Origin: a virus
Direction: 5' to 3' (one strand)
DNA length: 64,000 bases
IMG/VR virus record: IMGVR_UViG_3300025849_003059
Span: 19,473-83,472 of that record
Part shown: piece after piece, positions 11,073 through 33,440 of the stretch
How positions within the stretch are numbered: position 1 is the first letter of the stretch
How the letters are laid out: every line of letters starts with the position of its first letter
Made by a program: the position numbers and the translations under genes
Notes under the pieces: generated by a model
What the model saw: the letters and a program-made list of their open reading frames with translations, nothing else
Told to the model about the DNA's origin: nothing
Databases searched by the model: none

Positions 11073-11192
11073 TTAATGATTTTTGTAAATAAAGGGGTCT
11101 CTTTTACGAAGCTCTTCTAGTTTCTTTTTATAAATCTTTTCTTTTCTTCGATTCTCAAAATATAATTTGATTTTTTTTATTATTCCGAACAT
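11073..11192 (-). CDS. Very small basic phage protein, 39 residues
   Basis: This short frame starts with ATG at 11192, overlapping the end of the upstream glycosyltransferase-like gene by 13 bases, and stops at 11073. The product begins MFGIIKKIKLYFENRRKEK and ends RDPFIYKNH. It is helical and strongly basic, and the combination of a basic helix with a DPFIYK-type ending recalls tiny proteins of marine myoviruses. The overlap and shared orientation make it the last gene of the modification operon, just before the box that starts the 1225-residue enzyme. Function unknown. Confidence 0.6.
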   Translation of the reverse strand: MFGIIKKIKLYFENRRKEKIYKKKLEELRKRDPFIYKNH

Positions 11193-17088: not shown

Positions 17089-17662
17089 ATCTGTCTCGTT
17101 TTGATAAGATTGGTGATTGTACTGGCCAATCTATTTTAAATCGTTTATCGTTAAACACAATGGTTTTCTGTGCGGTTTCATCGTTGTACTCACCTTGGTA
17201 TGCCATTTTGTAAAAGAACATTGAATTATCTTCCATAACAAAATGTCCATTTGCAAACATTGGTGGTATAAGAACTTGTGTACCAGTTTCAGGTGAAAGT
17301 ACAAATGATTCCCATTTTCCATAAGTTGTTGAATGGGGTCTAACATCCAATACTACTAAGTAAATTTTACCATGAGGACAACTAACTAATTTCCAAGTTT
17401 TCTCATCATAGTGCATTCCTCTAAGAACTCCATACTTTGATTTTGAAAATCTATCGTGTTTAAATTGTAATCCTTTGTTTCTTTCATTTGCAGGTAATAA
17501 CCTATCATAATAATCTGAATGATATGTTGTAGATATTGAACCTCTGAACTCGTAATAAGTAGATGGTTGTACTACCTTCACTTCATTGAGCACTGAACCA
17601 TTGTAATAATGGAAATCATTCCAATCTCTTTCTTTATAAAATATACTTCTATTTAATGCCAT
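17078..17662 (-). CDS. dTDP-4-dehydrorhamnose 3,5-epimerase-like cupin
   Basis: The 194-residue product has an N-terminal extension (about 1-65), then the RmlC cupin core: KHDRFSKSKYGVLRGMHYD (about 68-86, with the catalytic His of RGMHYD), CPHGKIYLVVLDVRP, PETGTQVLIPPMFANGHFVM and FYKMAYQGEYN with candidate catalytic Tyr residues. The enzyme would epimerise C3/C5 of a 4-keto NDP-hexose or a related sugar. The extension and the variant YQGEYN loop suggest a non-standard substrate. It overlaps both neighbours by 11-14 bases and sits between an epimerase and the thiamine enzyme, consistent with one sugar pathway. Confidence 0.88.
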   Translation of the reverse strand: MALNRSIFYKERDWNDFHYYNGSVLNEVKVVQPSTYYEFRGSISTTYHSDYYDRLLPANERNKGLQFKHDRFSKSKYGVLRGMHYDEKTWKLVSCPHGKIYLVVLDVRPHSTTYGKWESFVLSPETGTQVLIPPMFANGHFVMEDNSMFFYKMAYQGEYNDETAQKTIVFNDKRFKIDWPVQSPILSKRDRYEH

Positions 17663-18614
17663 AACCTAGTGGAAAATCATTTCTATATTTAGAACTTAAA
17701 TCTGATATTAGAATTGTGTAAGTTTTTATTAACTCTTCTATACCCTTTTCTAATGTATATTGAGGTTTCCATGCATTAGATTCTAATTTTTGATTAGATA
17801 CTACATAATCTCTTTTATCAGGGTCCTCGTAATTATCGTTGTAGAAAATTTGAAAAGATGGTATCTGTTCTTGTATTGCTTCACACAATTGTTGTTTAGT
17901 AAGATTTGCTTCTGATAACCCTACATTGTACACTTCACCACTATGTAGATAATATTCTTCAATCATACTTCTAAATACCAAAGCAACATCTCTGATGTGA
18001 ATGAAGTTTCTTACAAATTTCTTTTCAAATAATACTATGGATTTATCTGTTAGGGCTTTGTAAACAAATTCGTTTACTAATAAATCCATTCTCATTCTTG
18101 GTGAAGTTCCAAAAACAGTAGCAAGACGTAAAGAGATTCCTCCTATCCCAAGAACCTCTTTTTCTGCCTCAACTTTGGTTTTTCCATAGTGGGAAATCGG
18201 GTTAAGTGGACTTTCTTCAGTACACACCCCATTCTCTCCTATCCCATATCCACTATTTGTGTTCGGATAAACCACCTTTTTATCATTTTCTTTTGCAATA
18301 TCACAAACAAACTTAACGTGCTCGTAATTTATTTGTGTTGCTAATTCTTTATCTCTTTCACAAGCAGGAAATCCTACGATTGCTGCAAGTGGAATAATTA
18401 CATCATTTTGTAATACTAATTCTTTTAGTAATTCTTTATCTCTTACATCACCATTAATGAATTTAAAAGTTTCATAGTGTGAAAAGTTTATAACAGATGT
18501 TTGATTATACATCATGTTATCTAATATTGTAACTTGTTTTGAATCTTGTAATAATACTTCTGTAATTACAGAACCTAAGTAACCTGCACCACCAGTAATT
18601 AGTATTTTTGTCAT
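17649..18614 (-). CDS. NDP-sugar epimerase/dehydratase (extended SDR)
   Basis: The 321-residue product carries TGGAGYLG (about residues 7-14), NTNSGYG around 115, a proper YGKTK catalytic pair near 143-147, LRLATVFGTSPRMR near 163 and RNFIHIRDVA near 202. These are standard landmarks of nucleotide-sugar 4-epimerases and 4,6-dehydratases. No membrane segment is present. It is one of three such enzymes in the operon and the only one immediately beside the RmlC-like epimerase. A joint path to a modified deoxyhexose is therefore likely but not provable. Its start overlaps the upstream radical-SAM stop by four bases (ATGA). Confidence 0.88.
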   Translation of the reverse strand: MTKILITGGAGYLGSVITEVLLQDSKQVTILDNMMYNQTSVINFSHYETFKFINGDVRDKELLKELVLQNDVIIPLAAIVGFPACERDKELATQINYEHVKFVCDIAKENDKKVVYPNTNSGYGIGENGVCTEESPLNPISHYGKTKVEAEKEVLGIGGISLRLATVFGTSPRMRMDLLVNEFVYKALTDKSIVLFEKKFVRNFIHIRDVALVFRSMIEEYYLHSGEVYNVGLSEANLTKQQLCEAIQEQIPSFQIFYNDNYEDPDKRDYVVSNQKLESNAWKPQYTLEKGIEELIKTYTILISDLSSKYRNDFPLGYGIK

Positions 18615-19813
18615 AAAACTGTATTTTTAATAATCAATTCATTTAATTCGCTAAATGTATTTGAAAACGATTGATTTCTTGAGTTATCTAAAATTTTATT
18701 TTTTAAAATAAAGTTATCCCACGAATTTCTATTAAAATCTTTTGAATTCATGCTATTCAAAACACCGAACATACTATCTTTAACATGAGGTGGAATATAT
18801 TCCTTATATAAATATATATTAAATTTTTTATTTATCGTATTTTTTACAGCATTTGGTAAGTTTGATGGTGCATAAAAATCAGGCCATGATACATCAATAA
18901 AGTATGGATTCATTTTCATGTCCAAACACCAATCTACTAATTCATCTAAATAAAATATACTTAAATTTGTAACTGTAACTGCAACGTCAAAATCAATTTT
19001 ATCTGATTTGTATTTTAACCAGTTTTCAATATTAGATTTTACTTGATTCCAATCTCCATGGTGTCTTATATAATTAAACCTATCTTTAGTAGCATCAATA
19101 GAGAATGAAATAACTACTCTTTTAAATTGTTTAAGTATATCAATATATTCTTCTCTAAATATTGTACCATTTGTATTAAAATGTAGTTCTTGATTTTTAG
19201 AATATCCAAGTTCTATCGATTTTTTTAGAGTTTCCCATTGTTTTTTTATCAACATTGGTTCTCCACCGTACATATCAATGTGTGTTATCTCGGATAGGTT
19301 CTCTTCAATCTCATTCCAAAAAATTGAAGAATCATCATATGATTTATAATAAGTTTTTACCCATTCTTTATAAACATTATCATCAGAATGACCACCACTA
19401 TCATCATGTAGTATTCTATGTTCATCAAACCATTTAATTGATGCACCAACTGAACACATTCTACAAGCAAGATTACAAGTATTACCAAGATTTAGTTCTA
19501 AAAATTTTAATTTAATAGAATCATCTATATGAAATCGTTCATTATCATTTATTCTTTTACTTTTATTTGAATTTTTTTCATCTACCCAACATCGTTTACA
19601 CCCATCGTGTTTAATCCCATTTTCCAAATCCTCAATAAGTTGTTTCCTATCAGGACTGTGCATCATTTCTTCAAAAGTGTGTGTATCGGTTTTTATGATA
19701 TTTCCTTTTGTATCTTTGAATGGTTTAGATTCATCGTAATAACAACATGGGGTGATATAACCACCATTTGCTACTCGTAATCCACTATAAGAATGTACAC
19801 ATCTTAAATCCAT
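18611..19813 (-). CDS. Radical-SAM protein with N-terminal cysteine-rich (twitch-like) domain
   Basis: The 400-residue product has the radical-SAM [4Fe-4S] motif CNLACRMC (residues 113-120) and a following GGEP motif (IDMYGGEPMLIKKQ near 180) that contacts S-adenosylmethionine. Before the core is a second cysteine set: Cys5, a twin Cys23-Cys24, and CKRC at 72-75. This suggests an auxiliary cluster or metal site, like the twitch/SPASM-type enzymes but N-terminal. The enzyme would start radical chemistry on a peptide, protein or sugar substrate that cannot be told from sequence. It is separated from the other five radical-SAM genes by a glycosyltransferase, a cytidylyltransferase and a small gene. 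Confidence 0.88.
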   Translation of the reverse strand: MDLRCVHSYSGLRVANGGYITPCCYYDESKPFKDTKGNIIKTDTHTFEEMMHSPDRKQLIEDLENGIKHDGCKRCWVDEKNSNKSKRINDNERFHIDDSIKLKFLELNLGNTCNLACRMCSVGASIKWFDEHRILHDDSGGHSDDNVYKEWVKTYYKSYDDSSIFWNEIEENLSEITHIDMYGGEPMLIKKQWETLKKSIELGYSKNQELHFNTNGTIFREEYIDILKQFKRVVISFSIDATKDRFNYIRHHGDWNQVKSNIENWLKYKSDKIDFDVAVTVTNLSIFYLDELVDWCLDMKMNPYFIDVSWPDFYAPSNLPNAVKNTINKKFNIYLYKEYIPPHVKDSMFGVLNSMNSKDFNRNSWDNFILKNKILDNSRNQSFSNTFSELNELIIKNTVL

Positions 19814-20145
19814 TATGATTCTATAATTTTAAAATTATCAAATATTTCAATATATTCTTTTAATTTTTTTGAAAGTATTTTATTTAAATCAATTCCATCT
19901 AAAATTGATTTTCTTTTATTTTTTACAACAATCAAAAATGTATTTGAATTATCATTTAACATTTGGGATGTTAGTCGATGTGTTAATGTTTTTTTATGGT
20001 TTGGATATTTTTCTTTGAATGATTTTTTATCAGTAATTGTATTTTTTAGTATATTTGATAAATTTTCTTTTTGATAATTAAATGGTACATATCCATTTGG
20101 TGTTAAAAAATCATACACAACGTAAAACTTTGTAAAATCTCTCAT
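19813..20145 (-). CDS. Small hypothetical protein, possible N-terminal fragment of the FWDESYD family
   Basis: The 110-residue product has no clear motif. Its start (YVVYDFLTPNGYVPFN) resembles the start of the putative glycosyltransferase at 12586-14007 (VYDIIGPHGPIPNGYNPN). It could be a shrunken relative, or a partner that shares a small N-terminal module. The rest is basic and helical. Stop-start overlaps on both sides (19813 and 20142-20145) place it firmly in the operon and argue that it is expressed. It does not look like a RiPP precursor: there is no glycine-rich or cysteine-rich core, nor a double-glycine leader. Confidence 0.45.
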   Translation of the reverse strand: MRDFTKFYVVYDFLTPNGYVPFNYQKENLSNILKNTITDKKSFKEKYPNHKKTLTHRLTSQMLNDNSNTFLIVVKNKRKSILDGIDLNKILSKKLKEYIEIFDNFKIIES

Positions 20146-21566
20146 AATTTTACATTTACCATCTTTGCTTTTGGTGATATTTCTTCAATACTAACTAATT
20201 CATACTTTAAAGAATTCATACCATCGGATTTATAATCCCAATCACCTTGTTGCATTTGTCTTATATATCTTCTTTCGTTTCTTGCGGTTGTTTCTCCCTT
20301 TTTCCACTTACCATCAATTAATCCTTCATCTTCATGTTCTAAACAAAACATTCTACCAGGTACTCTGTGTGGTACTGTTGTGTATGGGATGTTAATATCT
20401 TCTTTTATATATTCACAGTTATTTATTTTACCTTCCACTTCATCAATTAAATCAATTGCTTTACCTTTTTTAAAATTCATGTGAAATACCAATCCATCAT
20501 CTGTCGGTTTTTTCGAAAGATTTTCTACTTCTTCTTTTGATAGTGGTCTATCCCACATCTTTACATCTGCTATATCTCCTTTAAACCATTTAGATACATC
20601 ATTATCTTCAACTGATGTTGTTGTTCCTAAATAATATGGAGTATTTCCATATCTCTTTAAATGTCCTTCAAAATATTGAGGTGATTTAGTACCAGTACCC
20701 CATCTAGCATCAGATTCTTTTCCATTCATATATAAATGAACTTTACCATCATCTACAACTAAAGTAACCCATGCCCATAATCCTTCGTAGCGTTTCATCC
20801 ATTGATATAAATGATTTCCTTTATTGTTCCAAAGTTGAGCTGTGTACGCTCTTGAGTTATTATAAGATAATCCCCAATCATATCCTGGTCGTCTGAATAT
20901 GGGGTATTCTACAAATCTCCTATCTTCATCACCAATCAAGTAAATAGGAACTTTATCTTCTTGTTGTTGTGCTCGTACTAAAACAGAAACAGTATGTTCT
21001 CTTGTAGTAACATTTCTAAGTTTTCTTGATGTTGGTATTTCTACATAAGATGAATTACCATCAAATCTTAAAAATTCCATATCTTTACCATCAAAATCCA
21101 TGTAAGTATCATCTGCATAACCTTCTAATACACATCTCCAAAACAAATCATCATCTTCCATACCCCAATCCCAATAATCATTAGAGTATCCATTAGTATT
21201 CATTACTTGCTCTTTTGAAAATAAAATTGCTCCACCAAAATATTCTTCATATTTTAGTTCATAGTTCATTTGTGAAATTTGAGTTGCAATATGTCTTGGT
21301 TTTTCAGTAGGGTAGGAATAATCACATCCTTCTTCTGGTACCATATCGATATCATGCCAAACAATATAATCACAACCATCCTTGAATGCTTGTTCTGCAG
21401 CAATATTTTTCATTGCACCTCTGTTAAATAACTTATCATCTGTTTGGTGACCAAAATACATACAATAGTCGATACCCCTTTCTTCAAGAAATTTACCAAT
21501 TCTTGGTACAAACTCCTTTAGATGGGCTTCTCTGTTTCTATATGGTACACAAACTCCTAGTTTCAT
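20142..21566 (-). CDS. GT7-type (beta-1,4-galactosyltransferase-like) enzyme with inserted LamG-like domain
   Basis: I take the ATG at 21566, which gives an ATGA overlap with the upstream stop and starts directly at the fold (MKLGVCVPYRNRE); the frame also runs 21 codons further, to 21629. Residues 1-150 match GT7: VPYRNRE, the metal motif HDIDM (71-75), YFGGAILFSKEQ and the acidic motif WDWGMEDDD (132-140). Residues about 165-385 form a LamG/concanavalin-like jelly roll (FDGNSSYVEIP, WVTLVVDDGKVHLYMNG, FKGDIADVKMWDRPLS). The GT7 C-terminal piece returns at the end (NERRYIR, SDGMNSLKYELVSIEE). It would transfer a hexose from a nucleotide donor, and the insert may bind the glycan acceptor. Total 474 residues. 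Confidence 0.85.
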   Translation of the reverse strand: MKLGVCVPYRNREAHLKEFVPRIGKFLEERGIDYCMYFGHQTDDKLFNRGAMKNIAAEQAFKDGCDYIVWHDIDMVPEEGCDYSYPTEKPRHIATQISQMNYELKYEEYFGGAILFSKEQVMNTNGYSNDYWDWGMEDDDLFWRCVLEGYADDTYMDFDGKDMEFLRFDGNSSYVEIPTSRKLRNVTTREHTVSVLVRAQQQEDKVPIYLIGDEDRRFVEYPIFRRPGYDWGLSYNNSRAYTAQLWNNKGNHLYQWMKRYEGLWAWVTLVVDDGKVHLYMNGKESDARWGTGTKSPQYFEGHLKRYGNTPYYLGTTTSVEDNDVSKWFKGDIADVKMWDRPLSKEEVENLSKKPTDDGLVFHMNFKKGKAIDLIDEVEGKINNCEYIKEDINIPYTTVPHRVPGRMFCLEHEDEGLIDGKWKKGETTARNERRYIRQMQQGDWDYKSDGMNSLKYELVSIEEISPKAKMVNVKL

Positions 21567-21973
21567 ATTGAATCTGCAATTGCTTGTTTGAATTTTGTTG
21601 TACTCCATCCATGAGAACGGTCTATCCAATGAATAAGAGTACCAATTTCTTTTCCTGTGTAATCTTTATCTACATAATCATCTCCTAAGAATCTTACATC
21701 AGGATTTATACTTTTAATTAAAAATAAAAGTTCTTCTTCTGTATTATAGGTAAGTATTGTGTGATACCATGTAAACTGTTTTAACATTTCCCTTCTTTCA
21801 TCTACCGAAAGAATTGGTTTTTTCTTTTCAGGTCTTTCAATAGTTGGGTCATCATGTAATAGTATAAATAATTTTTCACAATTATTTTCTATTTCTTGAA
21901 ACATTTTTAGATAACCTGGATGTAAAACATCGAAGTTACCACAAATGATTCCTATTTCTGGTGTTTCTTTCAT
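21563..21973 (-). CDS. Cytidylyltransferase-like enzyme
   Basis: The 136-residue product is a compact nucleotidyltransferase of the glycerol-3-phosphate cytidylyltransferase/RfaE C-terminal type. It has GNFDVLHPGYLKMF (about residues 11-24), where the family HxGH reads HPGY, DERREMLKQF near 62, FLGDDYVDKDYTGKE near 97, and HGWSTTKFKQ at the end, corresponding to the RTxGISTT substrate motif. The change from His to Tyr in the signature could alter catalysis, although phosphotransfer may survive. It would activate a sugar- or polyol-phosphate as the CDP derivative. It overlaps the GT7 enzyme by four bases (ATGA) and the radical-SAM gene upstream by four. Confidence 0.8.
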   Translation of the reverse strand: MKETPEIGIICGNFDVLHPGYLKMFQEIENNCEKLFILLHDDPTIERPEKKKPILSVDERREMLKQFTWYHTILTYNTEEELLFLIKSINPDVRFLGDDYVDKDYTGKEIGTLIHWIDRSHGWSTTKFKQAIADSI

Positions 21974-23232
21974 AATATAGGATTTAATGATTGATATAAT
22001 TCAGGAAATATATCTTTCCATTTTTCTTTTCTAAATCTATCTACTCTTTCAGTAGTATCAATAAACGTTTCTCGTTCACCATTGTAATCTGCATTATAAT
22101 ATCTACCATAAACATCCTCATAAAACTCATCTGATAATAATCCTTTAATAGAATCCAATTTTTCTTGTCTATCTTTTTTTGGAATGATATTTGCTGATTG
22201 GTATTCGGGTGCATGAACGTGATTTGAAATTACTCTCCTAATCAAACCACTTCCATCTAAGTTGAATATACCACGTTTTACTAAATACTGAGTAAGTTCT
22301 TCCATATAAAGAAAATTAAAAGAACTTAATGTTTGTGTAATAGTATAGTAAAAATTATGGTCATTATATTGAGTAATAAATTTCTTTATATTATCTATTG
22401 TTAATTTAAAGTTTGCATTTTTTCTAATATAATCATTTCTATCACCAAAATCATCTACTGATATTGAAATACCAACAAATTGAAAATGTTTTAATTTTTC
22501 TAATGCTGGTTTTATCTTTTCAAAATCATAATTAGCATTTGTGATATAAAATATTTTCATTCTACTTGCTAATCCATCTTCAATTAATCTATCCAATAAC
22601 TTAAAGTGTTTTGGAACTAAAAATGGTTCTCCACCACTAATATGTAATTGGTCTATCATTGGAGAATGTGATATTAGTGCATCATAAAAAGTTTCATCTT
22701 CTACCCAATCATAGTTAGTATATTTTTTTTCTTGTAACTCATCATAATTACTTGGAAAATTTACCTCATCTTTCAATTTCATATAATCAGTAATCCAACT
22801 CGTTGATGATTCTGCATTACAACTTCTACATTTTAAATTACAATAGTTACCTAATCTAATTTCTACATTTCGTAAATCAATTGAAATAGTTCCATCTTCT
22901 TTTGTGGATTTATCAACATCAGTCATATAAAATGAATCTTTCTGTCTTTTACTTTTACCACCTGCTAATTCTACATCATGACAAGTTTTACACGCTGGTG
23001 GAACTTCACCATTTACCATTTGCTTTCTGATTTCTTTAAATGAATCAGAATTTACAATTGCTGGAATTCCTTCACGAATGTTTATTTTTTCATACCCACC
23101 ATCAGATAAAATATTTGATGCAGCAGATTGGCCATGTGCGTGATTAGATACACAACAAACAGAACAAACTCCATGTGGATGAACACTAATGTGTTTCCAA
23201 GGTAAATCACATAAAAATCTTGTTTCTTCCAT
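21970..23232 (-). CDS. Radical-SAM protein with N-terminal cysteine-rich (twitch-like) domain
   Basis: The 420-residue product has the N-terminal pattern CDLPWKHISVHPHG (Cys8), a later twin Cys26-Cys27, FKEIRKQMVNG and CKTC (81-84). The radical-SAM core motif CNLKCRSC follows at 131-138, then SGGEP (LHISGGEPFLVPKHF near 190). This N-terminal LPW...CC...CxxC layout marks the family usually described as twitch-domain radical-SAM proteins, which occurs in marine phages and bacteria. Substrate unknown. The gene follows another radical-SAM gene by a one-base overlap and is followed by the cytidylyltransferase. No tailored precursor peptide is adjacent. Confidence 0.9.
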   Translation of the reverse strand: MEETRFLCDLPWKHISVHPHGVCSVCCVSNHAHGQSAASNILSDGGYEKINIREGIPAIVNSDSFKEIRKQMVNGEVPPACKTCHDVELAGGKSKRQKDSFYMTDVDKSTKEDGTISIDLRNVEIRLGNYCNLKCRSCNAESSTSWITDYMKLKDEVNFPSNYDELQEKKYTNYDWVEDETFYDALISHSPMIDQLHISGGEPFLVPKHFKLLDRLIEDGLASRMKIFYITNANYDFEKIKPALEKLKHFQFVGISISVDDFGDRNDYIRKNANFKLTIDNIKKFITQYNDHNFYYTITQTLSSFNFLYMEELTQYLVKRGIFNLDGSGLIRRVISNHVHAPEYQSANIIPKKDRQEKLDSIKGLLSDEFYEDVYGRYYNADYNGERETFIDTTERVDRFRKEKWKDIFPELYQSLNPIL

Positions 23233-24536
23233 TAGTAAAGTTTATTCATTGATAACCCTTTATCATGTGGAATGGCGTTGTACCATTCTGCATACTCTGG
23301 GTTTATGTCTACAAATCTAAATTTTTCTTCTCTACCATCATCCAATAATTCTGTTGTATATTTTAATGCTTTTTCAACTTGGTCTTGTGTTTGTGCCAAG
23401 GGTTCATCTAAGAAATTAAAAATACTTTCATATTTAGGTCTTAATTCATTTGCATTTTCATCATCTAATGATTTTAAATGTCTTATATATCTTTTCTTAA
23501 CTTCTTGTTTTAATGAATCTGGTAAAATATTGATATGATAGTGATGAGGATTTGTTAATACATTGTTAAGATGGATATTAAAATGAGGTACACCCAAACT
23601 TTTCATATGTTCAATAAAATCTGGTATCTGTAATACGTTAAATATGTTAGTTGTACATGATACATGAAAATTTATGTTTGCATCTAAACATTTTTTTATA
23701 TTATCTTCAATAACATTCCACTTTGTACCTTTACGAGAATATTCTGCACTGTCACCATATCCATCTATTGATGCAAATATTGTTACATTACCATAATCTT
23801 GTTCTATAAATGGTTTCCACAATTCTAAATTATCATATTGTTTAAATTTAAGATATCCTAAATTTGTATTATATCGTAATCTTAAATTTGTATTTCCTAC
23901 TTCAACAAGTTTTTGTAATATGTAATAATGTTCCTCCATTAAAAGCGGTTCACCTCCTGCAAAATATATTTCTTCTACACTACGAACAAATTCATCTAAG
24001 TAAAGGTTTATGTCTTTTTTAGAATAATCATTTATATTAATAATTGCCTTTGGTAATGGAGAACCCCCATATAGTTTTACTTCATCCTCATACCATTTAG
24101 AAGATAAAAATGAACCACACATTCTACACTTCATATTACATAGATTTGAGAATCTAAAATCCCAATAAAGTAATTTGAAATCATCATTATGACCATCTTC
24201 AGAAGTGTTATCTGTTAATGTTGGAATATGTTTCTCAAACCAACGATTTGAAGAGGTTCTCGTTGAATCTAATCCATTTTCTTCTTGTTGATAACACTTT
24301 CTACAACTATTGTGTTTCTCTCCACTCAGCATATCTTTACGAATGGATTTCATTGAATCATTGTTCCATATTTCTTCTAAAGTATTATCTTTTAGATTTC
24401 CAACTTCTTCTCTCCAATCAGTAAGACAACAAGGATACACATTACCATTAGGCCATGTATTTAAATGTATCCAAGGTAATACACAAAACGATTTAGATAC
24501 TTTATCTCCAGGATTTTCTAATTTCTGATTATCCAT
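23232..24536 (-). CDS. Radical-SAM protein with N-terminal cysteine-rich (twitch-like) domain
   Basis: The 434-residue product shows FCVLPWIHLNTWPNG (Cys18), Cys36-Cys37 in YPCCLTD, a NLKDNTLEEIWNND element, IRKDMLSGE and CRKC (78-81). The radical-SAM motif CNMKCRMC follows at 133-140, with YFAGGEPLLMEEHY near 200. Among the six paralogues it is closest in N-terminal layout to the 21970-23232 gene. Length and motif order are complete, so the enzyme is probably functional. It overlaps the upstream gene by eight bases. The role is unknown, and maturation of a virion protein or a sugar intermediate are both compatible with the setting. Confidence 0.9.
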   Translation of the reverse strand: MDNQKLENPGDKVSKSFCVLPWIHLNTWPNGNVYPCCLTDWREEVGNLKDNTLEEIWNNDSMKSIRKDMLSGEKHNSCRKCYQQEENGLDSTRTSSNRWFEKHIPTLTDNTSEDGHNDDFKLLYWDFRFSNLCNMKCRMCGSFLSSKWYEDEVKLYGGSPLPKAIININDYSKKDINLYLDEFVRSVEEIYFAGGEPLLMEEHYYILQKLVEVGNTNLRLRYNTNLGYLKFKQYDNLELWKPFIEQDYGNVTIFASIDGYGDSAEYSRKGTKWNVIEDNIKKCLDANINFHVSCTTNIFNVLQIPDFIEHMKSLGVPHFNIHLNNVLTNPHHYHINILPDSLKQEVKKRYIRHLKSLDDENANELRPKYESIFNFLDEPLAQTQDQVEKALKYTTELLDDGREEKFRFVDINPEYAEWYNAIPHDKGLSMNKLY

Positions 24537-25899
24537 TATCTTCTACCTTTTCAATTGTTTTTAACGTTTTAAACCAATCTATAAATTCTGTTGGCATATA
24601 TTCATCTATTGGCATTTTTCTTCTTACTGCATATTGTTCTACGAAGTTTTTGAAATCATGGTGTTTATTTTCAAACGTATCGGTATCTTCATATGAAGTA
24701 TCTACTTTTCTTAAATATTCTATAACTCGTTTAAATTGATTTTCCTCCCAACCAATCATATATTCTTTGTTTCTATTTAATGCTTCTTCAATTTTATCTG
24801 CCAATTGATTTTTTACTTCTTGTGAAATAATATTAATTGATTGAAATGATGGGAATCTTAGAATATTTACAGACATAAAAAATTCTTCTTTATTTACAAA
24901 CTTTTTTCTCCAATCTATAATTTTATCCATAAACTCAGCTATTGACCAAATAGATAGTGCTGATATTGTCATCATTATATGAACTGAACGAATGTTTTCA
25001 GAATCATGTAATCTAAACATATTTTTTTCCCATGTATCCCACTCAAATCCATCTCGTACAAACTCTTGGTTTTTACCAATACATTCTGCTGAGGTGTAAA
25101 CATCAAACGATTTAAAGTTTTTACCAGCATCTATTAAGGTACTTATTCTAGCATCATCCATTATAAGATTTGAATTTATTGAAAAGTCAAATGTTTCATT
25201 ATCACATATTTCAAGTAATTGCCAAAATGAAGGGGAACGCAATGGTTCTCCTCCAGATACGCGTAATTCATGTAATCCATGTCTAATCTCTTTAAACCAT
25301 TCATAAAATTTTGAAATATATGGATTTCTTTGATTTTTAGAACCATACGGCATTGCATGATGACCAGTATTTTTGAAGGTATGTCCACCTGATGTTTTCA
25401 TGTTTTGATATGGGCCTTTTGAAGTAATATCAGTATTCCACGTTGATGAAAATTCAGCGTTACAATATGAACAAGCAAGATTACATAAATTATCAAATGC
25501 CAATTCAACTGTTTTTGGAATTACATTAGCATCCCAAGGCATATTTTTAATTGCTAATATTTCTTCTTTGGTGTATCTTTGTGTTTGGTAAACCCTATCT
25601 GAAAATATTCCACTTTCTTTTGTTGCAGCATCTTCTACTCTCCAACAATAAGAACATTCTGCTGGTCTTTCTCCTTCTAACATTTTTTTACGTTGTTCTT
25701 TTTTGAACTGTGTATTGTGTAGTGCAGATTTATCTTTATCTAATTCGGGTCTTGGGATTGAATGTGCGAGTGGATGATGACAGGATGCGGTTCTACCATT
25801 ACCTAACCATATCGATACATTATACCATTTTGCTGCACAAAAGGATTTAGATATTGAATCTATAACATTTTTAGTTTCTACTAAATGTGAGGTTGACAT
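24529..25899 (-). CDS. Radical-SAM protein, CHHP subgroup, copy 1
   Basis: The 456-residue product has FCAAKWYNVSIWLGNG (Cys21), then SCHHPLAHSIP (Cys40-His-His) instead of the twin cysteine of its relatives, ALHNTQFKKEQRKKMLEG and CSYC (82-85). The radical-SAM motif CNLACSYC is at 139-146, with RVSGGEPLRSPSFW near 230. Three neighbouring genes share this CHHP layout, so it defines a subgroup that arose by tandem duplication. The histidines may replace a cysteine ligand of an auxiliary cluster. It overlaps the next paralogue upstream by 19 bases. Substrate unknown. Confidence 0.88.
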   Translation of the reverse strand: MSTSHLVETKNVIDSISKSFCAAKWYNVSIWLGNGRTASCHHPLAHSIPRPELDKDKSALHNTQFKKEQRKKMLEGERPAECSYCWRVEDAATKESGIFSDRVYQTQRYTKEEILAIKNMPWDANVIPKTVELAFDNLCNLACSYCNAEFSSTWNTDITSKGPYQNMKTSGGHTFKNTGHHAMPYGSKNQRNPYISKFYEWFKEIRHGLHELRVSGGEPLRSPSFWQLLEICDNETFDFSINSNLIMDDARISTLIDAGKNFKSFDVYTSAECIGKNQEFVRDGFEWDTWEKNMFRLHDSENIRSVHIMMTISALSIWSIAEFMDKIIDWRKKFVNKEEFFMSVNILRFPSFQSINIISQEVKNQLADKIEEALNRNKEYMIGWEENQFKRVIEYLRKVDTSYEDTDTFENKHHDFKNFVEQYAVRRKMPIDEYMPTEFIDWFKTLKTIEKVEDNG

Positions 25900-27251
25900 A
25901 ACTTATAAAATTTAGTTAATTGTGGAAAAATTTCTTCAAAATTTAATTTTCTTCTTTTATCATATTCTTCTGTAAATAAATAGAAATCTTTTCTATTTCT
26001 ATTAAGTTTATCAGATTCTGGTTTTATATTCATATATTCTACAAGTCTTTCTAATTGATTGATTTGTTCTTCTGTTAAAAATGTATCAGATTCCCAATTA
26101 GAATTTTTACTTGAGTTAATAAGATTATTAATGTTTTTTTGAAATGTACTTTTTGTTTCATCATCAAGATTTTGGATTGATAAAAACTCTGGATATCTTA
26201 AATAGTTTGTCATAAACTGAACTTTATTGAAATCTACATCATTAATATATTTTGAACGTAATTTTAAAATATATCTAATAAAATCATCATAACTTACAAC
26301 ACTTGTTAAATTTACAGTAGTCATTATTGAAAATAAAACATTTTTAACATTAGATAAAACCTTTTCACAGTTTTTTTCCCATTTTTCTTGAATAGTTCCG
26401 AATCTAATGTATTCATTATGTTTACCAGTTGCTTCTCCACTTGTAAATAATTGTAATTCTTTTACTTTACCATCTAACTTATTTAGTTTATCAATTAATT
26501 TATCAATCAACATATCAGGTATCATAAGATTCGTGTTTATTGAAAAAATTAAATTTGGATTTGGATTTTCAATTAACTCATCCATTACTTTCCAAGTATC
26601 TTTTGATAAAAGTGGCTCACCACCTGTAATTCTTAATGTGTGTAACTTTGGATAAAGTTCTGGCCACCATTTCCAAAAGGCTTCAACATAAGGATTGTGT
26701 TCTGATTTTTTATATGGTATTTTTAAATTATCTTTAAAATAATTTATATCATTATATTTTGTAGATGTAGGATACCCTCCAAATTTTTCCACCTCTTCCA
26801 TCCATGTGGATGATATATCAGGTGAACAATATGCACATTTCATATTACAAGTACTTGAAAACGAAACTTCCAAATAACTTGGTTCAATATCTTGTGTTCG
26901 TTTTTCTAATATCTCATCTTTCTTTACTTGAGAAAATGAGTTTGCTGATTTGTATATTCTATCTGAAATATACTCTTTACCCAAATCTTCTATCTTCCAA
27001 CAATACTCACATTCAGAAGGACGTTGACCTTTCAACATCTGTTTCATCTGCCTTTTCTTATACTTTGTATTATGTAAGGCTTTATGGTTCTTTTCTAACT
27101 CTCTTAGAGGTATTTTGTGAGGGGTTGGGTGATGACACGAATGGTTATAACCATTTTGTAGGTAAAGTGTTAATTGAGACCACTTTGCTAAACAGAAACT
27201 AGTTGAAACTTCATCGAGTTGGTTTCTAATATCATTGTAAAAATTCTTCAT
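25881..27251 (-). CDS. Radical-SAM protein, CHHP subgroup, copy 2
   Basis: The 456-residue product repeats the subgroup layout: FCLAKWSQLTLYLQNG (Cys20), SCHHPTPHKIPLRELEKN (Cys39), ALHNTKYKKRQMKQMLKG, CEYC (81-84), the radical-SAM motif CNMKCAYC (135-142) and RITGGEPLLSKDTW near 220. It is closer to the 27232 copy (shared HKIPLREL) than to the 24529 copy. The C-terminus ends with an RRKLNFEEIFPQ segment common to the trio, perhaps part of the substrate site. Nineteen- and twenty-base overlaps with its neighbours show tight coupling. Intact by all motifs visible. Confidence 0.88.
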   Translation of the reverse strand: MKNFYNDIRNQLDEVSTSFCLAKWSQLTLYLQNGYNHSCHHPTPHKIPLRELEKNHKALHNTKYKKRQMKQMLKGQRPSECEYCWKIEDLGKEYISDRIYKSANSFSQVKKDEILEKRTQDIEPSYLEVSFSSTCNMKCAYCSPDISSTWMEEVEKFGGYPTSTKYNDINYFKDNLKIPYKKSEHNPYVEAFWKWWPELYPKLHTLRITGGEPLLSKDTWKVMDELIENPNPNLIFSINTNLMIPDMLIDKLIDKLNKLDGKVKELQLFTSGEATGKHNEYIRFGTIQEKWEKNCEKVLSNVKNVLFSIMTTVNLTSVVSYDDFIRYILKLRSKYINDVDFNKVQFMTNYLRYPEFLSIQNLDDETKSTFQKNINNLINSSKNSNWESDTFLTEEQINQLERLVEYMNIKPESDKLNRNRKDFYLFTEEYDKRRKLNFEEIFPQLTKFYKLCQPHI

Positions 27252-28665
27252 TTAGTTTTTTACATTGATTAAAAAAGTCAACTAACTCTGGAAATGTTTC
27301 GTGGAAATTAGTTCCTCTACGTTTATCGTGTGCAGAAATAAAATTGTAAAAATCTCTACGAGTCCTCTTAAGTGTTTCTTCATCCACTTCTTCGTCAAAC
27401 CAATCAATAATTCTTTTTATTTTTCCAATTTCAATTTGAGTAAATCCTAAGTAATGGTCTTTCCAATCTTCAATTTCCCATAAAGGTTTAACCGTATGCA
27501 TTGTTTCTGCTTGAGTTACAAACTCTTCTAATCTTTCTTTAAACTCTCTTGGTAGTATTTTAACAGTTTGATGGTGTGGGTATCTTAAATACGCAGAATC
27601 TAATGTTAGGGCAGTTACCCAATATCTATCTGGTGAGTTGTGTAGTGTTTTCATTTCAAAAACCCACTCTAAAAGTTCACCATAACGTAAAATTGATAGT
27701 GCGTTGAAGGTTGACATTATAGCTATTGATAATTTTGTTGTTTTTGAAAGAAGTTCATCAACTCTTTTTTGCCAAATAGGGAAATCTAATCCATTTCGTG
27801 CATATTCTGCTTGTTCTCCAAAAGTATCTACTGATGTAAATACTGTAAGTTCTTTTATTCTTCCACTTTCTTCTAATTCAATCATTTTTGCTAAGAACTT
27901 ATCGTATATTTTATCAGGTATACCTAAGTTTGTGTTTATAGAAAGTTTTAAATTAGTGTTTGGATTATCTGTTGTAAGAATGTGTTCTACTACCCTCCAA
28001 AAATCAGGTGACATTGTTGGTTCACCACCCGTTATTCTAAAAGTATCCATATCTTTATACAAATCTGGCCACCACTCCCAAAATGCATCTACATATGGGT
28101 TTGCTTCAGAATGTTTATATGGCATTTTACCATTTTCTTGTAACCATTCTAAGTTTCCAAAGTTATCTGATGTTGGGTATGCACCATGTTGTTTTATTTC
28201 CTCTACCCACTTTGATGAATATTGAGGACCACAATAAGAACACTTAAAATTACAAGCATTTGAGAAGGCAACTTCAACATATTTTGGATTGTAGTTTTCT
28301 CTCCAACCCAATTCTTTGATTTTATCAAAATGTGGTTTAGACCAAGGTTCAAATGATTTATAGTGTCTATCAGAAAACTCAGGTCCACTATCTTCAACCT
28401 TCCAACAATAATCACACTCTGGTGGTCTTTCGTTGTTAAGCATCATTTTTCTTTGCTTCTTCTTGTGTCTTGTGTTGTGAAGTGCGGTTGGGTTTCTTTT
28501 TAATTCTCTTAATGGAATTTTATGTGGAATGGGGTGATGACACGAGTGTGTTTCACCTGTTTGAAGATGTATTGTAACTTGAGTCCATTTTGCTAAACAA
28601 AATCCACAACCAACATCATCTAGTTGTTCTCTAAAATCATATAACTGTCCTCTATGGTCTATCAT
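27232..28665 (-). CDS. Radical-SAM protein, CHHP subgroup, copy 3
   Basis: The 477-residue product is the first transcribed of the radical-SAM run. It has FCLAKWTQVTIHLQTG (Cys23, with another Cys20), SCHHPIPHKIPLRELKRN (Cys42), ALHNTRHKKKQRKMMLNN, CDYC (84-87), the radical-SAM motif CNFKCSYC (138-145), and RITGGEPTMSPDFW near 220. The ATG at 28665 forms an ATGA overlap with the stop of the GT7-LamG gene upstream, tying radical chemistry to glycosyl transfer at the level of translation. No transmembrane segment is present. What it modifies is unknown. Confidence 0.88.
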   Translation of the reverse strand: MIDHRGQLYDFREQLDDVGCGFCLAKWTQVTIHLQTGETHSCHHPIPHKIPLRELKRNPTALHNTRHKKKQRKMMLNNERPPECDYCWKVEDSGPEFSDRHYKSFEPWSKPHFDKIKELGWRENYNPKYVEVAFSNACNFKCSYCGPQYSSKWVEEIKQHGAYPTSDNFGNLEWLQENGKMPYKHSEANPYVDAFWEWWPDLYKDMDTFRITGGEPTMSPDFWRVVEHILTTDNPNTNLKLSINTNLGIPDKIYDKFLAKMIELEESGRIKELTVFTSVDTFGEQAEYARNGLDFPIWQKRVDELLSKTTKLSIAIMSTFNALSILRYGELLEWVFEMKTLHNSPDRYWVTALTLDSAYLRYPHHQTVKILPREFKERLEEFVTQAETMHTVKPLWEIEDWKDHYLGFTQIEIGKIKRIIDWFDEEVDEETLKRTRRDFYNFISAHDKRRGTNFHETFPELVDFFNQCKKLNEEFLQ

Positions 28666-30110
28666 AAACTGATTTTTATCATATTAACTAGTTTCTTTTT
28701 TGATACTTTTTTTTCTTTAAATCTTAGAGTATTTAAACCTTCAATTTTATAATTATCAAAATCTTCTCTAACTTCATTATAAAATCTAATTTGATTTTTT
28801 CTAGTATCAGAATGTATCCACTTATTTCCAATAGATGAATTTGATTTATGTTTTAAAGATTTAAATCTACTTTCTCTTCTATGTGGTTTTGGTAGATATG
28901 ATTTAAAAGATTCTATACCCTTGTATAAATATGTATTGTATAATTTTATGTTATTCTGCTGAGCTATATCAATACATTCTTCTTTTTTAGAAAATTCTGG
29001 TAATATCTGACATAATAAAAATTCTGATGATATGAAGTTATCAAAATTTCTTATTTTGGGTGTTGTTGGATTTTCGTATATTGATTTAACTTCGTTTGAA
29101 TCTAATCCAACATCATATATTTCAACTACACCAACTTTTCCAATTAAAAATTCTTTGTTTGTTTTTTTACTATTAGGTGCACCTACAAATATCTCATCAG
29201 TTGATAATTGTAAAATTTCAGTATCCATTTCTATTTTTTCAATCAATTCACCATTGACGTAAAATGAAATAAATTTATTATCTTCATATGTCATTGTTAG
29301 ATGTGTCCATGCTTCACCCATTATATCAGAAGATATTGAATATGCTTTTTTATTCAAATCATAAGTCTGACAAAAGTATCTACGAAAGGAATTGTAAAAT
29401 AATCCAATGTTGTAGCCTGGTATAGATAATATTGGGAATTCATCATAATCTTTATTTTTACTTAATTTTATTTCTTCTGGTTTTACTAAAACTGAAATAG
29501 TGAAATCATCTTCCAATAAAATAGAATCTTTTGTTGAAATTTTTATATAACTTCTATCACCATCTAATTTGAATGAATGAATTTCACTTACATTGGAATT
29601 ACCAAACACTTCTTTGTCAATATCCAATCCTGCTTGAATACATCTTATCAATAAATCATCATCTTCGAATCCCCATCCCCAATATTCATTGGAGAATCCA
29701 TTGATAGTTTTAAAATCTTCTTTGGTAAACATTGTTACTCCACCAAAGTAATCAAAGAATGTTGTTTCGTAATCGTGTTCTTGTAAATGAGTTGCTAAAT
29801 GTAAAGGTTTATCTGAATATGAGTAATCTACATCTTCTGGTAACATATCAACATCATGAAATACAAAATAATCACACCCTTTATCAACGGCATACTTATA
29901 TCCTGCATTCAGAAGTTTACCTCTATTAAAAGGTTTATCATCTGTCTGTTCAACGATGAAGATTTCATAATCAATATCCTTAATATAATCTTTCATATGA
30001 GATAAGAACCTTTTCAGTTGTTGTTCTCTATCTCTATATGGAACTATTATACCAAGTTTATGAGTTATCTTCTTCTCCTTGAGTCTCTTTGTTCTCTTGG
30101 ATTCTCTCAC
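28662..30110 (-). CDS. GT7-type glycosyltransferase with inserted LamG-like domain
   Basis: As for the 20142-21566 enzyme, the GT7 fold is split by a jelly-roll module. Counting from a GTG at 30110, VPYRDRE is at 23-29, the metal motif HDVDM at 85-89, YFGGVTMFTKEDF near 121 and an intact WGWGFEDDD at 144-152. The LamG-like part spans about 175-350 (LDGDRSYIKIS, WTHLTMTYEDNKFISFYVNGE, IGKVGVVEIYDVGL), and GT7-like KIEGLNTLRF returns near the end. The start is uncertain: GTG at 30110 has a ribosome site only two bases away and overlaps its neighbour by 53 bases. AAGGAG lies six bases before an ATA codon at residue 15, next to the conserved fold. Confidence 0.82.
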   Translation of the reverse strand: MRESKRTKRLKEKKITHKLGIIVPYRDREQQLKRFLSHMKDYIKDIDYEIFIVEQTDDKPFNRGKLLNAGYKYAVDKGCDYFVFHDVDMLPEDVDYSYSDKPLHLATHLQEHDYETTFFDYFGGVTMFTKEDFKTINGFSNEYWGWGFEDDDLLIRCIQAGLDIDKEVFGNSNVSEIHSFKLDGDRSYIKISTKDSILLEDDFTISVLVKPEEIKLSKNKDYDEFPILSIPGYNIGLFYNSFRRYFCQTYDLNKKAYSISSDIMGEAWTHLTMTYEDNKFISFYVNGELIEKIEMDTEILQLSTDEIFVGAPNSKKTNKEFLIGKVGVVEIYDVGLDSNEVKSIYENPTTPKIRNFDNFISSEFLLCQILPEFSKKEECIDIAQQNNIKLYNTYLYKGIESFKSYLPKPHRRESRFKSLKHKSNSSIGNKWIHSDTRKNQIRFYNEVREDFDNYKIEGLNTLRFKEKKVSKKKLVNMIKISL

Positions 30111-30333
30111 TTCCTCTTTCGGGTCTGTTTATACTTCCTTTTGTTCTTGTTTTGAAAATTTGAAAAAATTCATTCAAATACCACTCTAATCTTTCAGACC
30201 ATTCTACTAGTCCAACATCCTCGTTGTAATCATTTCGTTCTTCGAGGGCATCTGCGATTCTTCCAAAAGCCTTAGCCATCTTTTCATAGGCCTCAACTTT
30301 TCTTTCTTCAAAGTTATTATCTTTATCTGCCAT
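30058..30333 (-). CDS. Small helical phage protein, 91 residues
   Basis: The product is acidic and helical at the N-terminus (ERKVEAYEKMAKAFGRIADALEE), then carries an aromatic segment WSERLEWYLNEFFQIF (about residues 45-60). The end is hydrophilic and disordered. It is the kind of small helical protein often found between phage accessory genes. The ATG at 30333 lies four bases after the stop of the upstream GT7 gene, and its tail overlaps the next GT7 gene by 53 bases or fewer depending on that start. It could be a partner or chaperone of the flanking transferases; nothing in the sequence proves it. Confidence 0.55.
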   Translation of the reverse strand: MADKDNNFEERKVEAYEKMAKAFGRIADALEERNDYNEDVGLVEWSERLEWYLNEFFQIFKTRTKGSINRPERGSERIQENKETQGEEDNS

Positions 30334-30337
30334 AATA

Positions 30338-31795
30338 TTAAGTTATTATTCTTACTAATTTATATTCACTTCTATCTTGGATATCCATTATTTTATATTT
30401 TAATGTAGATAATCCAATTTTTTTATAATCAAGTTCATCTGTTAACACTTCGTTAAAGAAAATATCAGCATTCTCTTCAATATCAGGGTCATATTCATAA
30501 TATTTTTCAATAATATTTTCATCATCATCGTGTACTAATGACTTGTACTTACCATCCAATCTAACTGGTATGGAAATTTCATCTGTTAGGTATATTTCTT
30601 CATTTGATAAATTAAAATTACTACCTTCAATATTTAAATGATTGTAATTCTTACCTGAATCTAATACCACCCTATTTTTATATAACTTATCAAAGTTAAA
30701 AAAGTTACTCAATACAATACCATATTTATTTTTTAATAAATCAAGGTTAGATTTTCCATTATAATATAGGTCAGATACGATATCATCATTTATTTTACTA
30801 GAAATACAAAAGATATCTGCTAGTTTAATTTCAGAATTTGTATCTGATATTTTAATTGAATGATTTTTATAATCGTATAATTTAAAATCTTTTGGTAAGT
30901 TACCACTAACTTTAATATTATTAAGATATAATGATATTTTATCATCATCAAAAGAAAAAACTGCATGATTCCATGTGTTTTTATAATAAGTTTGACTTAT
31001 CTCTTGGTGTTTTTCTTTTGTATCCCATATTTGACCTATTAAGTATTTACCATCTGATAAAAATAGACCAGAATCACATCCTTCAAACGCAAATAAGTTT
31101 TTAGGATAATCACCTCCATTATCTTTAAACCATAATGATATTGTAAACTGTTTTTCTATATCGTTTTGGGTTAATTTATTTATAACACCATAGAATCTAG
31201 TATCTTTTTCGATTTCAACTAAATTTAGTGTTTGTTTTTTTGGATTATTGCTCAAATCAACATCTTCAATTCTATATGGTAGGATATCATCATTATTATA
31301 TTTTGAATATGTTTTGTTTAAATCATAATATACTTCAAGATATGCATCACTTTTTTCTAATCTATATAATAAATCTAAATCACTAAAACCATAACCATAG
31401 TATTCTGGTGAGTAACCATTTGAATTTTCAAAATCTTCTCTATTAATTAACAAAACACCACCCATATATTGAGGATAGGGTAGTTCACCATTATGAGCCT
31501 CAACATCATTTGCTAAATGAGTTGGTTCATCAACATAAGAATAATCACATTCATCTGTCATTGGTAACATATCAATATCGTGGAAACAAAAATAGTTATA
31601 TTCTGCATCTATTTCCTTAACAACAGCATTACATAGTTTTCCATAATTAAATGGTCTATCATCTGCTTGTTCAGCTATAAAAATATCATAATCAATTCCT
31701 TTACCATCTAAGAATTCATGCATATGAGGAACAAATGTATTTAAATGTTCTTCTCTATCTCTATATGGAACGATTATTGCTAATTTATCACTCAT
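30338..31795 (-). CDS. GT7-like protein with LamG-like insertion and degenerate acidic motif
   Basis: The 485-residue product shares the GT7-LamG architecture: VPYRDREEHL (10-19), metal motif HDIDM (72-76) and YMGGVLLINREDFENSNGYS. At the position of WGWGxEDDD it reads YGYGFSDLD (133-141), so two of the acidic residues, including the glutamate, are replaced. The LamG-like region spans about 180-345 (FTISLWFKDNGG, WNHAVFSFDDDKISLYLNN), and IGLSTLKYKIMDI closes the GT7 fold. It may have changed donor or acceptor, or serve as a non-catalytic binding partner for the two intact paralogues. It overlaps the upstream gene by four bases (ATGA). Confidence 0.75.
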   Translation of the reverse strand: MSDKLAIIVPYRDREEHLNTFVPHMHEFLDGKGIDYDIFIAEQADDRPFNYGKLCNAVVKEIDAEYNYFCFHDIDMLPMTDECDYSYVDEPTHLANDVEAHNGELPYPQYMGGVLLINREDFENSNGYSPEYYGYGFSDLDLLYRLEKSDAYLEVYYDLNKTYSKYNNDDILPYRIEDVDLSNNPKKQTLNLVEIEKDTRFYGVINKLTQNDIEKQFTISLWFKDNGGDYPKNLFAFEGCDSGLFLSDGKYLIGQIWDTKEKHQEISQTYYKNTWNHAVFSFDDDKISLYLNNIKVSGNLPKDFKLYDYKNHSIKISDTNSEIKLADIFCISSKINDDIVSDLYYNGKSNLDLLKNKYGIVLSNFFNFDKLYKNRVVLDSGKNYNHLNIEGSNFNLSNEEIYLTDEISIPVRLDGKYKSLVHDDDENIIEKYYEYDPDIEENADIFFNEVLTDELDYKKIGLSTLKYKIMDIQDRSEYKLVRIIT

Positions 31796-32670
31796 ATTCT
31801 AATAACCTTTTTTGTTATCGTATCCCAATGTTTATAAGATGAATGTAAATTATCTTCTGAATCTTGTATGTAAAATTCTTTATCAGATATATCAATCTTA
31901 TAATCATTTAATTGTATTGCTCTATACATTTTTTTATATTCTTTCCAAAATGTATAATCTTCTTTTGTATTCGATACTTCTTTTAACCTATCCAACACAG
32001 TAGAATCCCATTTGAAGTGATGAACTTGTACAAACCCACTACCATCTTCTAAAATATTTTTTTTGTTTATGTGTCCAATTGGGTATCGTTGTGGATGAAA
32101 TATACTTCCATATCCCCAAGTATTTTTACCATCTCCTAAATCAACATAGTGTTGTCCTGCGGTAACATTAACTGAACCTTTCATTACACAAACCTTATTT
32201 GGACATGCACCACTCAATGGATTTCTAAAAAATCCAACATTAGGGAACTCTTTCCATATATCACTATCTTTCGATATATTTGGGAATTCCCCATTCACAC
32301 CTATTCTATCCAAAAATCCACCAGTAATAAATGTCCAACCATTTTCTTCACATCGTTGAATCATTGTTCGTAATGGAATTGGATATATGTGAAACTCATC
32401 GTCGTCCGAAACCACCCACCATTCATTTGGTTTTGTTTGTTTTACTTTGTTGTATAATTCAGTTACCTTCTCCCAATGAAATTTAGGTTCTGTAACAACC
32501 ATATAAGGTTCTACACCACACTTCTTTACTTCTTCAAGTATTCCATCATCTTCACTCTGTCTGTACACTACAACGAAGATTTCATCTACTATCGATTCGT
32601 AGTGTTTTATCATATGGGGAAGCAAAGTAGTATTGTGTCCTACTATCGTAACCAAATTTATTTTTTGCAT
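31792..32670 (-). CDS. GT-A type glycosyltransferase-like protein
   Basis: The 292-residue product resembles family 2/92-like glycosyltransferases. It has an N-terminal strand-helix start (NLVTIVGHNTTLLPHMIKHY), EIFVVVYRQSEDDG, and WWVVSDDDEFHIYP near residues 88-101, which holds the DxD-type metal motif. A histidine-rich acceptor region (SIFHPQRYPIGHIN, QVHHFKWDSTVLDRL) follows, as in enzymes that have HxxWK-like signatures. No membrane helix is present. It overlaps the methyltransferase gene upstream by 13 bases. The donor is presumably one of the nucleotide sugars made by the downstream genes. Confidence 0.75.
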   Translation of the reverse strand: MQKINLVTIVGHNTTLLPHMIKHYESIVDEIFVVVYRQSEDDGILEEVKKCGVEPYMVVTEPKFHWEKVTELYNKVKQTKPNEWWVVSDDDEFHIYPIPLRTMIQRCEENGWTFITGGFLDRIGVNGEFPNISKDSDIWKEFPNVGFFRNPLSGACPNKVCVMKGSVNVTAGQHYVDLGDGKNTWGYGSIFHPQRYPIGHINKKNILEDGSGFVQVHHFKWDSTVLDRLKEVSNTKEDYTFWKEYKKMYRAIQLNDYKIDISDKEFYIQDSEDNLHSSYKHWDTITKKVIRI

Positions 32671-33440
32671 TTTTGTATGAATGTTAAACCGGTAGAAGAT
32701 GGTTTAGATTTAAATATACCATTGTTAAAAAAGTTAAAAACCTCCCAATCTTTATCTTCTTTTAATTCTTTAATTAATTTTGAAGGTCCTTCTGCAAATT
32801 CATCGTGATGATTTTGGTCTGTGATATCTTTTGTTATAATATATTCTTTTTCGAATGAATCATCAGTATCGTGTATTGATATTATTCCATGAGGTGAGAG
32901 TAATTTGGAATATAATTCAAAATCAAGTTTTACATCCTCGTATGTATGACCGGCATCTATATGAAGGTAGTCAATTTTTATATCTTCTTTTACAAAAAAG
33001 TTATAATAAGCATTTTCAGTAGTTTCATTTATAATTCTTGGAAAAAACTTTTTTCTTAGATAGGAATTTTCTTCTAACCAATCTACATTACCTCCAACTC
33101 CATTTGCGGCATCTACTAAAAAAGTAACACCGATATCTCCCCAATTATAATCTCTATTTCCTTCGAAGATTCCGGCATCATATAAATCAATTCTTGATTG
33201 TGTCATGATTCGTGGAATGAATCCACCACCACTCCCTAAACATACACATACTTTTGCACGAAGATAATGAATAACACTATACACCAACAAACCATCTCCC
33301 ATACTAAATTCAGTAGCACCATGTGTCCATCTATATGCTAGTGGAGAATGTTCAGTATATTCACGACCATCTTCAGCTTTCTTAGTATATAAGTTATTGG
33401 TTATAAAATCTTTTATATAATTTAAATTAAGAATATTCAT
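32658..33440 (-). CDS. SAM-dependent methyltransferase, cephalosporin-hydroxylase/Methyltransf_24-like
   Basis: The 260-residue product has a class I methyltransferase core: CVCLGSGGGFIPRIM (about residues 80-94) as the SAM-binding glycine loop, an acidic IDLYD after it, and YLHIDAGHTYEDVKLDFELY (about 160-180). LLSPHGIISIHDTDD follows, typical of the Methyltransf_24 group that acts on sugars and small molecules. It is first behind the TATATTTATATA box at 33482-33493, about 40 bases before the start, so it opens the long modification operon. O-methylation of a transferred sugar is the likeliest role, by context. Confidence 0.8.
   Translation of the reverse strand: MNILNLNYIKDFITNNLYTKKAEDGREYTEHSPLAYRWTHGATEFSMGDGLLVYSVIHYLRAKVCVCLGSGGGFIPRIMTQSRIDLYDAGIFEGNRDYNWGDIGVTFLVDAANGVGGNVDWLEENSYLRKKFFPRIINETTENAYYNFFVKEDIKIDYLHIDAGHTYEDVKLDFELYSKLLSPHGIISIHDTDDSFEKEYIITKDITDQNHHDEFAEGPSKLIKELKEDKDWEVFNFFNNGIFKSKPSSTGLTFIQKCKK

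Follow-up and report, generated by a model that had tools for sequence, protein, structure and literature searches.

Three genes of an uncultured virus raise the question of how a glycosyltransferase and a lectin-like domain share one polypeptide. The genes, GT7a, GT7b and GT7c, lie in a stretch of 64,000 nucleotides (the window; positions 19,473 to 83,472 of IMG/VR record IMGVR_UViG_3300025849_003059). The first-pass annotation of this DNA had claimed that each product has a laminin G-like (LamG) module placed within its GT7 catalytic fold instead of appended to it. That a LamG domain of about 235 residues breaks into the GT7 fold of all three proteins is strongly supported. The source contig comprises 83 kb of virus DNA with T4-type portal and terminase genes, and its terminase is nearest to those of Microcystis phage Mel-JY01 (57%) and Flavobacterium phage immuto (54%).

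The interrupted GT7 fold

The three proteins have a mutual identity of about 30%. Pfam assigns GT7N, GT7C and Laminin_G_3 (PF13385), in this order, to each of them, always above the gathering cut-off. The Laminin_G_3 E-values for the three proteins are 1e-13, 4e-14 and 5e-7, and GT7b gives 2.6e-23 for GT7N, 3.4e-21 for GT7C and 3.9e-14 for Laminin_G_3. Matches to GT7N and GT7C are found in 50 of 50 family members (E ≤ 0.001), and 48 of 50 diverse members have a recognisable LamG.

The AlphaFold models of GT7a and GT7c have predicted local distance difference test (pLDDT) scores of 92.0 and 92.2. Compared with beta4GalT1, the GT7a model (range 1–474) gives a Z of 28.1 and the GT7c model (range 1–485) a Z of 27.6, in both cases over 212 residues at 1.9 Å. 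In the prediction for 20142–21566, which is GT7a, residues 1–153 and 398–474 together rebuild the beta4GalT1 fold, so both halves form a single domain. The insert alone (GT7a 162–398, GT7c 189–405) resembles the LamG domain of PAPP-A and the pentraxins, with a Z of about 21. By sequence profile and by its jelly-roll fold, it belongs to the LamG/concanavalin A-like lectin superfamily.

A GT7 domain complete before residue 160, with a C-terminal resemblance due to chance, would agree with the finding that the C-terminal segment gives nothing significant as a single-sequence PDB query. However, a profile of this segment retrieves only beta4GalT1 from 177,635 PDB sequences: all 12 matches (E ≤ 10) are to this enzyme in the correct register, the best with an E of 0.07. 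Among 2,917 open reading frames (ORFs), the same profile matches GT7 ORFs only, with no others at E ≤ 1. When the insert is cut out of GT7a, the best PDB matches (6fwu, 6fwt) grow from the first 150 residues, and the spliced parts cover nearly the entire human beta4GalT1, including the lid and the DGLNSL segment. In insert-free bacterial GT7s, the C part follows 2–8 residues after the N part (in the 44, of 51, where the C profile was detected), and in the phage GT7s the gap is 210–267 residues. The profile search, the insert-free relatives and the two structure models all assign the C-terminal segment to the GT7 fold, and the stretch before the insert is an incomplete GT7 domain; a chance resemblance is ruled out for practical purposes. 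A frame or assembly artefact is also excluded, since 83 independent loci provide 195 intact ORFs of this architecture. The claims of an interrupted fold and of a genuine C-terminal GT7 segment are thus borne out, while the size given for the module, about 200 residues, is revised to a measured 210–265 or so.

Insertion point and catalytic residues

GT7a P399–H411 aligns without gaps to human beta4GalT1 P331–H343, which places the insert at about human residues 329/330, past the EDDD helix and just short of the lid (residues 338–365). The Mn-ligand histidine and the DGLNSL segment are therefore supplied by the part after the insert. The lid of beta4GalT1 holds Met340 and His343, which together with Asp250 complete the Mn site, and it forms the acceptor-binding helix (PMC6198961). 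GT7a His411 aligns with human His343, the Mn ligand. The lid histidine and the DGLNSL-type segment complete the GT7 fold and place the proteins in the GT7 family. Among 50 homologues, conservation before the insert is 0.96 at each of D72, D74 and D138, and after it 0.92 at His411 and 1.00 at N430 and G449. Since conserved catalytic residues lie before as well as after the LamG domain, the active site must assemble across the insert.

The DxD motif and the Trp-loop WGxEDDD motif are both present in GT7a and GT7b, and the metal- and sugar-nucleotide residues are kept in these two copies. All three proteins are probably Mn2+- and UDP-sugar-dependent glycosyltransferases. A GWG-EDDD motif had been reported for all three; this is correct for GT7a and GT7b, but GT7c reads YGYGFSDLD.

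GT7c retains the DxD motif, and its Trp loop is GYGFSDLD. In GT7c and its relatives, FNYG replaces FNRG, and the Trp loop of the relatives has DLD, DID or DVD instead of the consensus. Given these alterations, the GT7c branch may comprise paralogues of different specificity or non-catalytic ones. One GT7c relative (L060:2749-4203) has HWID and is without the lid histidine.

Distribution and history

A scan of IMG/VR with GT7a finds relatives on at least 171 stretches, of which 80 were kept, and a family-wide scan finds them on at least 517; the insert was checked in part of each set. At 83 related loci, all 195 GT7 ORFs carry the insert, with no loss seen in the phage clade; at most of these loci there are two or three copies. 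In 13 larger records, of up to 289 kb, the full-length GT7 copies are grouped in one cluster. The architecture is common only inside one group of uncultured phages. Searches of cultured-phage records by tblastn with GT7a, GT7b and a divergent relative give no match, in a collection that may omit near relatives of the window phage. A structure search of BFVD returns single-domain matches only (TMq ≤ 0.38), and searches of an open-access literature library bring up nothing relevant on a glycosyltransferase combined with LamG or on GT7 in phages.

Bacterial genome records hold insert-bearing ORFs on five contigs of metagenome-assembled genomes (L084, L085, L086, L087 and L090). Three of these (L084, L085 and L087, from Pelagibacterales and Flavobacteriales bins) share synteny with the phage loci and look like phage DNA inside bacterial bins; L086 and L090, contigs of 3 kb, may be of either origin. 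A bacterial origin of the insert-bearing copies was rejected on the grounds of the three syntenic contigs.

A careful tree of the GT7 parts puts the insert-bearing rows on one side of a branch with a support of 76/78, which is suggestive only, and a quick GT7 tree with three long branches needs two changes. The insert tree gives the same three subfamilies as the GT7 tree, and so the inserts travelled with their own enzyme. A separate insertion in each paralogue is not supported, as the insert tree mirrors the GT7 subfamilies, and an exchange of LamG between paralogues is not seen on it. The sequence trees are compatible with one LamG insertion followed by gene duplication as the simplest history. 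A single event would have placed the LamG jelly roll in an ancestral phage GT7, at the turn that joins the EDDD helix to the strand running into the lid, and the interrupted gene would then have been duplicated to give two or three copies per phage.

The gene cassette and related LamG proteins

The synteny counts cover the 80 loci kept from the GT7a scan. The recurring gene order is methyltransferase, GT2, (GT7c), GT7b, (cytidylyltransferase), GT7a, radical SAM, (stand-alone LamG), epimerase, dTDP-sugar isomerase and an E1/thiamine pyrophosphate (TPP) enzyme. Radical-SAM genes are present in 79 loci, GT2 in 73 and the methyltransferase in 70. The features of the window are collected in Table 1.

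Table 1. Features of the GT7 region in the window (aa, amino acids).
Feature	Position	Strand	Basis
Sugar-nucleotide genes: three NAD epimerases, dTDP-sugar isomerase, E1/TPP-enzyme subunit	14545..18614	-	
Sixth twitch-domain radical-SAM enzyme	18611..19813	-	NF033640, 291 bits
GT7a, LamG-interrupted GT7 glycosyltransferase, 474 aa	20142..21566	-	Pfam, AlphaFold, structure comparison
GT7a residues 398-474, C-terminal GT7 part (lid, His411, N430, G449 of DGMNSLKY)	20142..20375	-	
GT7a residues 154-397, LamG/pentraxin-like jelly roll insert	20376..21107	-	Laminin_G_3 E 1e-13; PAPP-A Z ~21
GT7a residues 1-153, N-terminal GT7 part (PYRNR, FNRG, DID, YFGG, WGMEDDD)	21108..21566	-	
Cytidylyltransferase-like protein, between GT7a and radical-SAM genes	21563..21973	-	PF01467 E 1.4e-12; 22/80 loci
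Five tandem twitch-domain radical-SAM enzymes (N_Twi_rSAM)	21970..28665	-	NF033640, 283-401 bits, cut-off 170
GT7b, 482 aa, GTG start; insert ~28890-29612; His421, EGLNTLRF	28662..30110	-	Pfam, paralogue alignment
GT7c, 485 aa; linker and insert ~30572-31321; His422, IGLSTLKY	30338..31795	-	Pfam, AlphaFold
GT2-type glycosyltransferase	31792..32670	-	Glyco_tranf_2_4 E 2.6e-5, just under gathering cut-off; synteny
Methyltransferase (Methyltransf_24)	32658..33440	-	Synteny and family match

All six radical-SAM proteins of the window exceed the curated cut-off of NF033640 (170 bits). Most relatives show one or two such paralogues in the stretch examined. A two-gene E1/TPP-enzyme pair (13997–14545 and 16450–17088) stands among NAD epimerases and a dTDP-sugar 3,5-epimerase (13997–17662), suggesting an unusual, perhaps branched-chain, sugar. 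Two adjacent paralogue-like proteins of 468 and 473 aa (11180–12586 and 12586–14007) have the common motifs NSYFSIVTE and YHPFV and no significant Pfam match; the second has homologues in 30 of the 80 loci. A 1,225-aa protein (7351–11028) has cytidylyltransferase-like and HD-domain matches. Among 65 insert-free viral GT7 loci, all of a single lineage and viewed with 4-kb flanks, none carries the radical-SAM, LamG, GT2 or methyltransferase genes of the cassette.

Stand-alone LamG ORFs related to the insert start within 100 nucleotides of the end of a radical-SAM gene in 61 of the 76 loci with enough sequence for this count. They are about 225–280 aa long (for example L021:8938-9672, L050:8825-9496, L050:10865-11608 and L044:8844-9683), and LamG and radical-SAM genes alternate twice in L050 and L055. 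The stand-alone and the inserted LamG domains form separate groups on the insert tree (support 90, quick tree). No stand-alone LamG is detectable in the 83-kb contig of the window phage. The position of these ORFs beside radical-SAM genes is a pattern pointing to a common binding role of the LamG modules in the pathway.

The first-pass annotation had also linked the inserts to a large LamG-bearing virion protein (57907–63084). This link is not supported, since the profile match of that protein to the inserts has an E of 0.026 and its LamG-like region scores below the Pfam cut-off; the stand-alone LamG in the cassette of related phages is the better relative. The description of the 57907–63084 product as a virion protein is likewise not established, as its relatives are annotated as hypothetical. 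This product comprises 1,725 aa with a weak LamG-like stretch, and has relatives in Microcystis phage Mel-JY01 and Flavobacterium phage immuto (26–30% identity over residues 640–1457).

Possible role of the insert

An acceptor-holding insert is plausible, because the domain lies directly upstream of the lid, which carries the metal and acceptor sites in beta4GalT1, and because it is lectin-like. The preferred reading, which has roughly an even chance of being right, is that copies a and b are active GT7 transferases, that the insert is a binding domain at the lid, and that the paralogues build one phage-specified glycan. The insert would capture and orient the acceptor, either a glycan chain or a protein glycosylated by the cassette, and the paralogues would act on the glycan one after another. 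Its sugars would be supplied by the adjoining epimerase, isomerase, GT2, methyltransferase and radical-SAM genes, and copy c would have a changed specificity or be non-catalytic. The acceptor would be a host surface glycan or a virion protein. For the glycosyltransferases of pelagimyophages, a host surface glycan is the proposed target (PMC7029224).

The mean identity among orthologues is 0.29–0.53 for the insert versus 0.59–0.79 for the enzyme part, so the insert is faster-evolving, which might fit a recognition domain. Several points weigh against the preferred reading. Fast evolution of the insert equally fits relaxed constraint, and sequence conservation yields no ligand site in it: most of those that are conserved have a structural role (Gly, aromatics, D/N at 230 and 281), with no conserved polar cluster in the homologue alignment. 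In addition, GT7c deviates from the catalytic consensus, and the insert-free viral loci used for comparison are one lineage with short flanks.

The same poor conservation and missing polar cluster would be expected of a tolerated passenger or a structural brace without a role towards the substrate. Against this stand the retention of the insert in all GT7 ORFs of the phage clade, the recognition of LamG in nearly all of the diverse members, and the maintenance of a related LamG as a separate gene, which make a mere passenger quite unlikely. A protein-docking module that joins the GT7s, the stand-alone LamG, the radical-SAM enzymes and GT2 in one complex, with no acceptor contact, is a doubtful but conceivable alternative. 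The cassette is conserved with a fixed adjacency of radical-SAM and LamG genes, and LamG and pentraxin folds, of which PAPP-A and the pentraxins are the closest solved examples here, often mediate protein contacts. Yet copies that pair should keep a common surface, whereas the inserts of paralogues within one phage are only about 26% identical, and the window phage is without a detectable stand-alone LamG.

Recognition of a virion protein, namely the LamG-bearing product of 57907–63084, would make the phage particle the target of glycosylation by the enzymes. The cassette follows a weak-BACON protein and a tail-fibre-type Peptidase_S74 protein, PHROG 8510 (virion structural protein) matches the GT7b insert with 3.7e-8, and relatives of the 57907–63084 product are present in T4-like phages. 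This explanation is nevertheless very unlikely, given the low similarity of its LamG region to the inserts; nothing shows that LamG binds LamG, and LamG is frequent in viral proteins, with many BFVD matches, so the co-occurrence of two LamG regions says little. An unlikely extension of the acceptor-binding reading, drawn by analogy, is that the insert would serve in cis, through the lid, as a subunit for acceptor specificity, as alpha-lactalbumin does in trans for beta4GalT1, with the stand-alone LamG as a trans version serving the radical-SAM enzymes.

Comparison with known systems and significance

beta4GalT1: The phage enzymes resemble beta4GalT1 (beta-1,4-galactosyltransferase 1; CAZy GT7; PDB 1tvy, 2ae7, 6fwt) in fold, over 212 residues with a Z of 28 at 1.9 Å and about 30% identity. 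The DxD motif, the Trp-loop/EDDD motif, the lid histidine and the DGLNSL segment are common to both. In contrast, beta4GalT1 lacks a LamG insert, alpha-lactalbumin modifies its acceptor use as a protein in its own right, and the position of Met340 is occupied by Ser, Cys or Leu in the phage family.

Insert-free GT7s: The proteins of Azospirillum, Pelagibacteraceae and the viral contigs L141–L203 have the same N and C parts in about 250 aa. Their two parts adjoin, and the viral ones are without the radical-SAM/LamG cassette.

LamG, pentraxin and PAPP-A N-terminal domains: These share the fold of the insert, as shown by the structure comparison and the Laminin_G_3 match. Unlike them, the LamG of the phage GT7s sits inside the fold of another enzyme.

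Pelagimyophage host-recognition cluster: This T4-like region lies beside tail fibres and is, like the phage cassette, rich in glycosyltransferase and radical-SAM genes (PMC7029224). It differs in that GT8 is the main family, and a lectin or laminin domain is not mentioned (PMC7029224).

Carbohydrate-binding modules on glycosyltransferases are usually appended. The phage GT7s bring a new domain architecture to an enzyme family already known, a solid result, and one that is widespread in a single group of uncultured T4-like phages. A whole lectin fold lies at the hinge of the catalytic lid in a very well studied enzyme family, and it has persisted through duplication and strong divergence, as part of a conserved phage cassette. 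How an inserted domain can govern the dynamics of the lid and the choice of acceptor is testable in this system, and the arrangement is the mark of a separate glycan-modifying pathway among uncultured phages of the T4 type.

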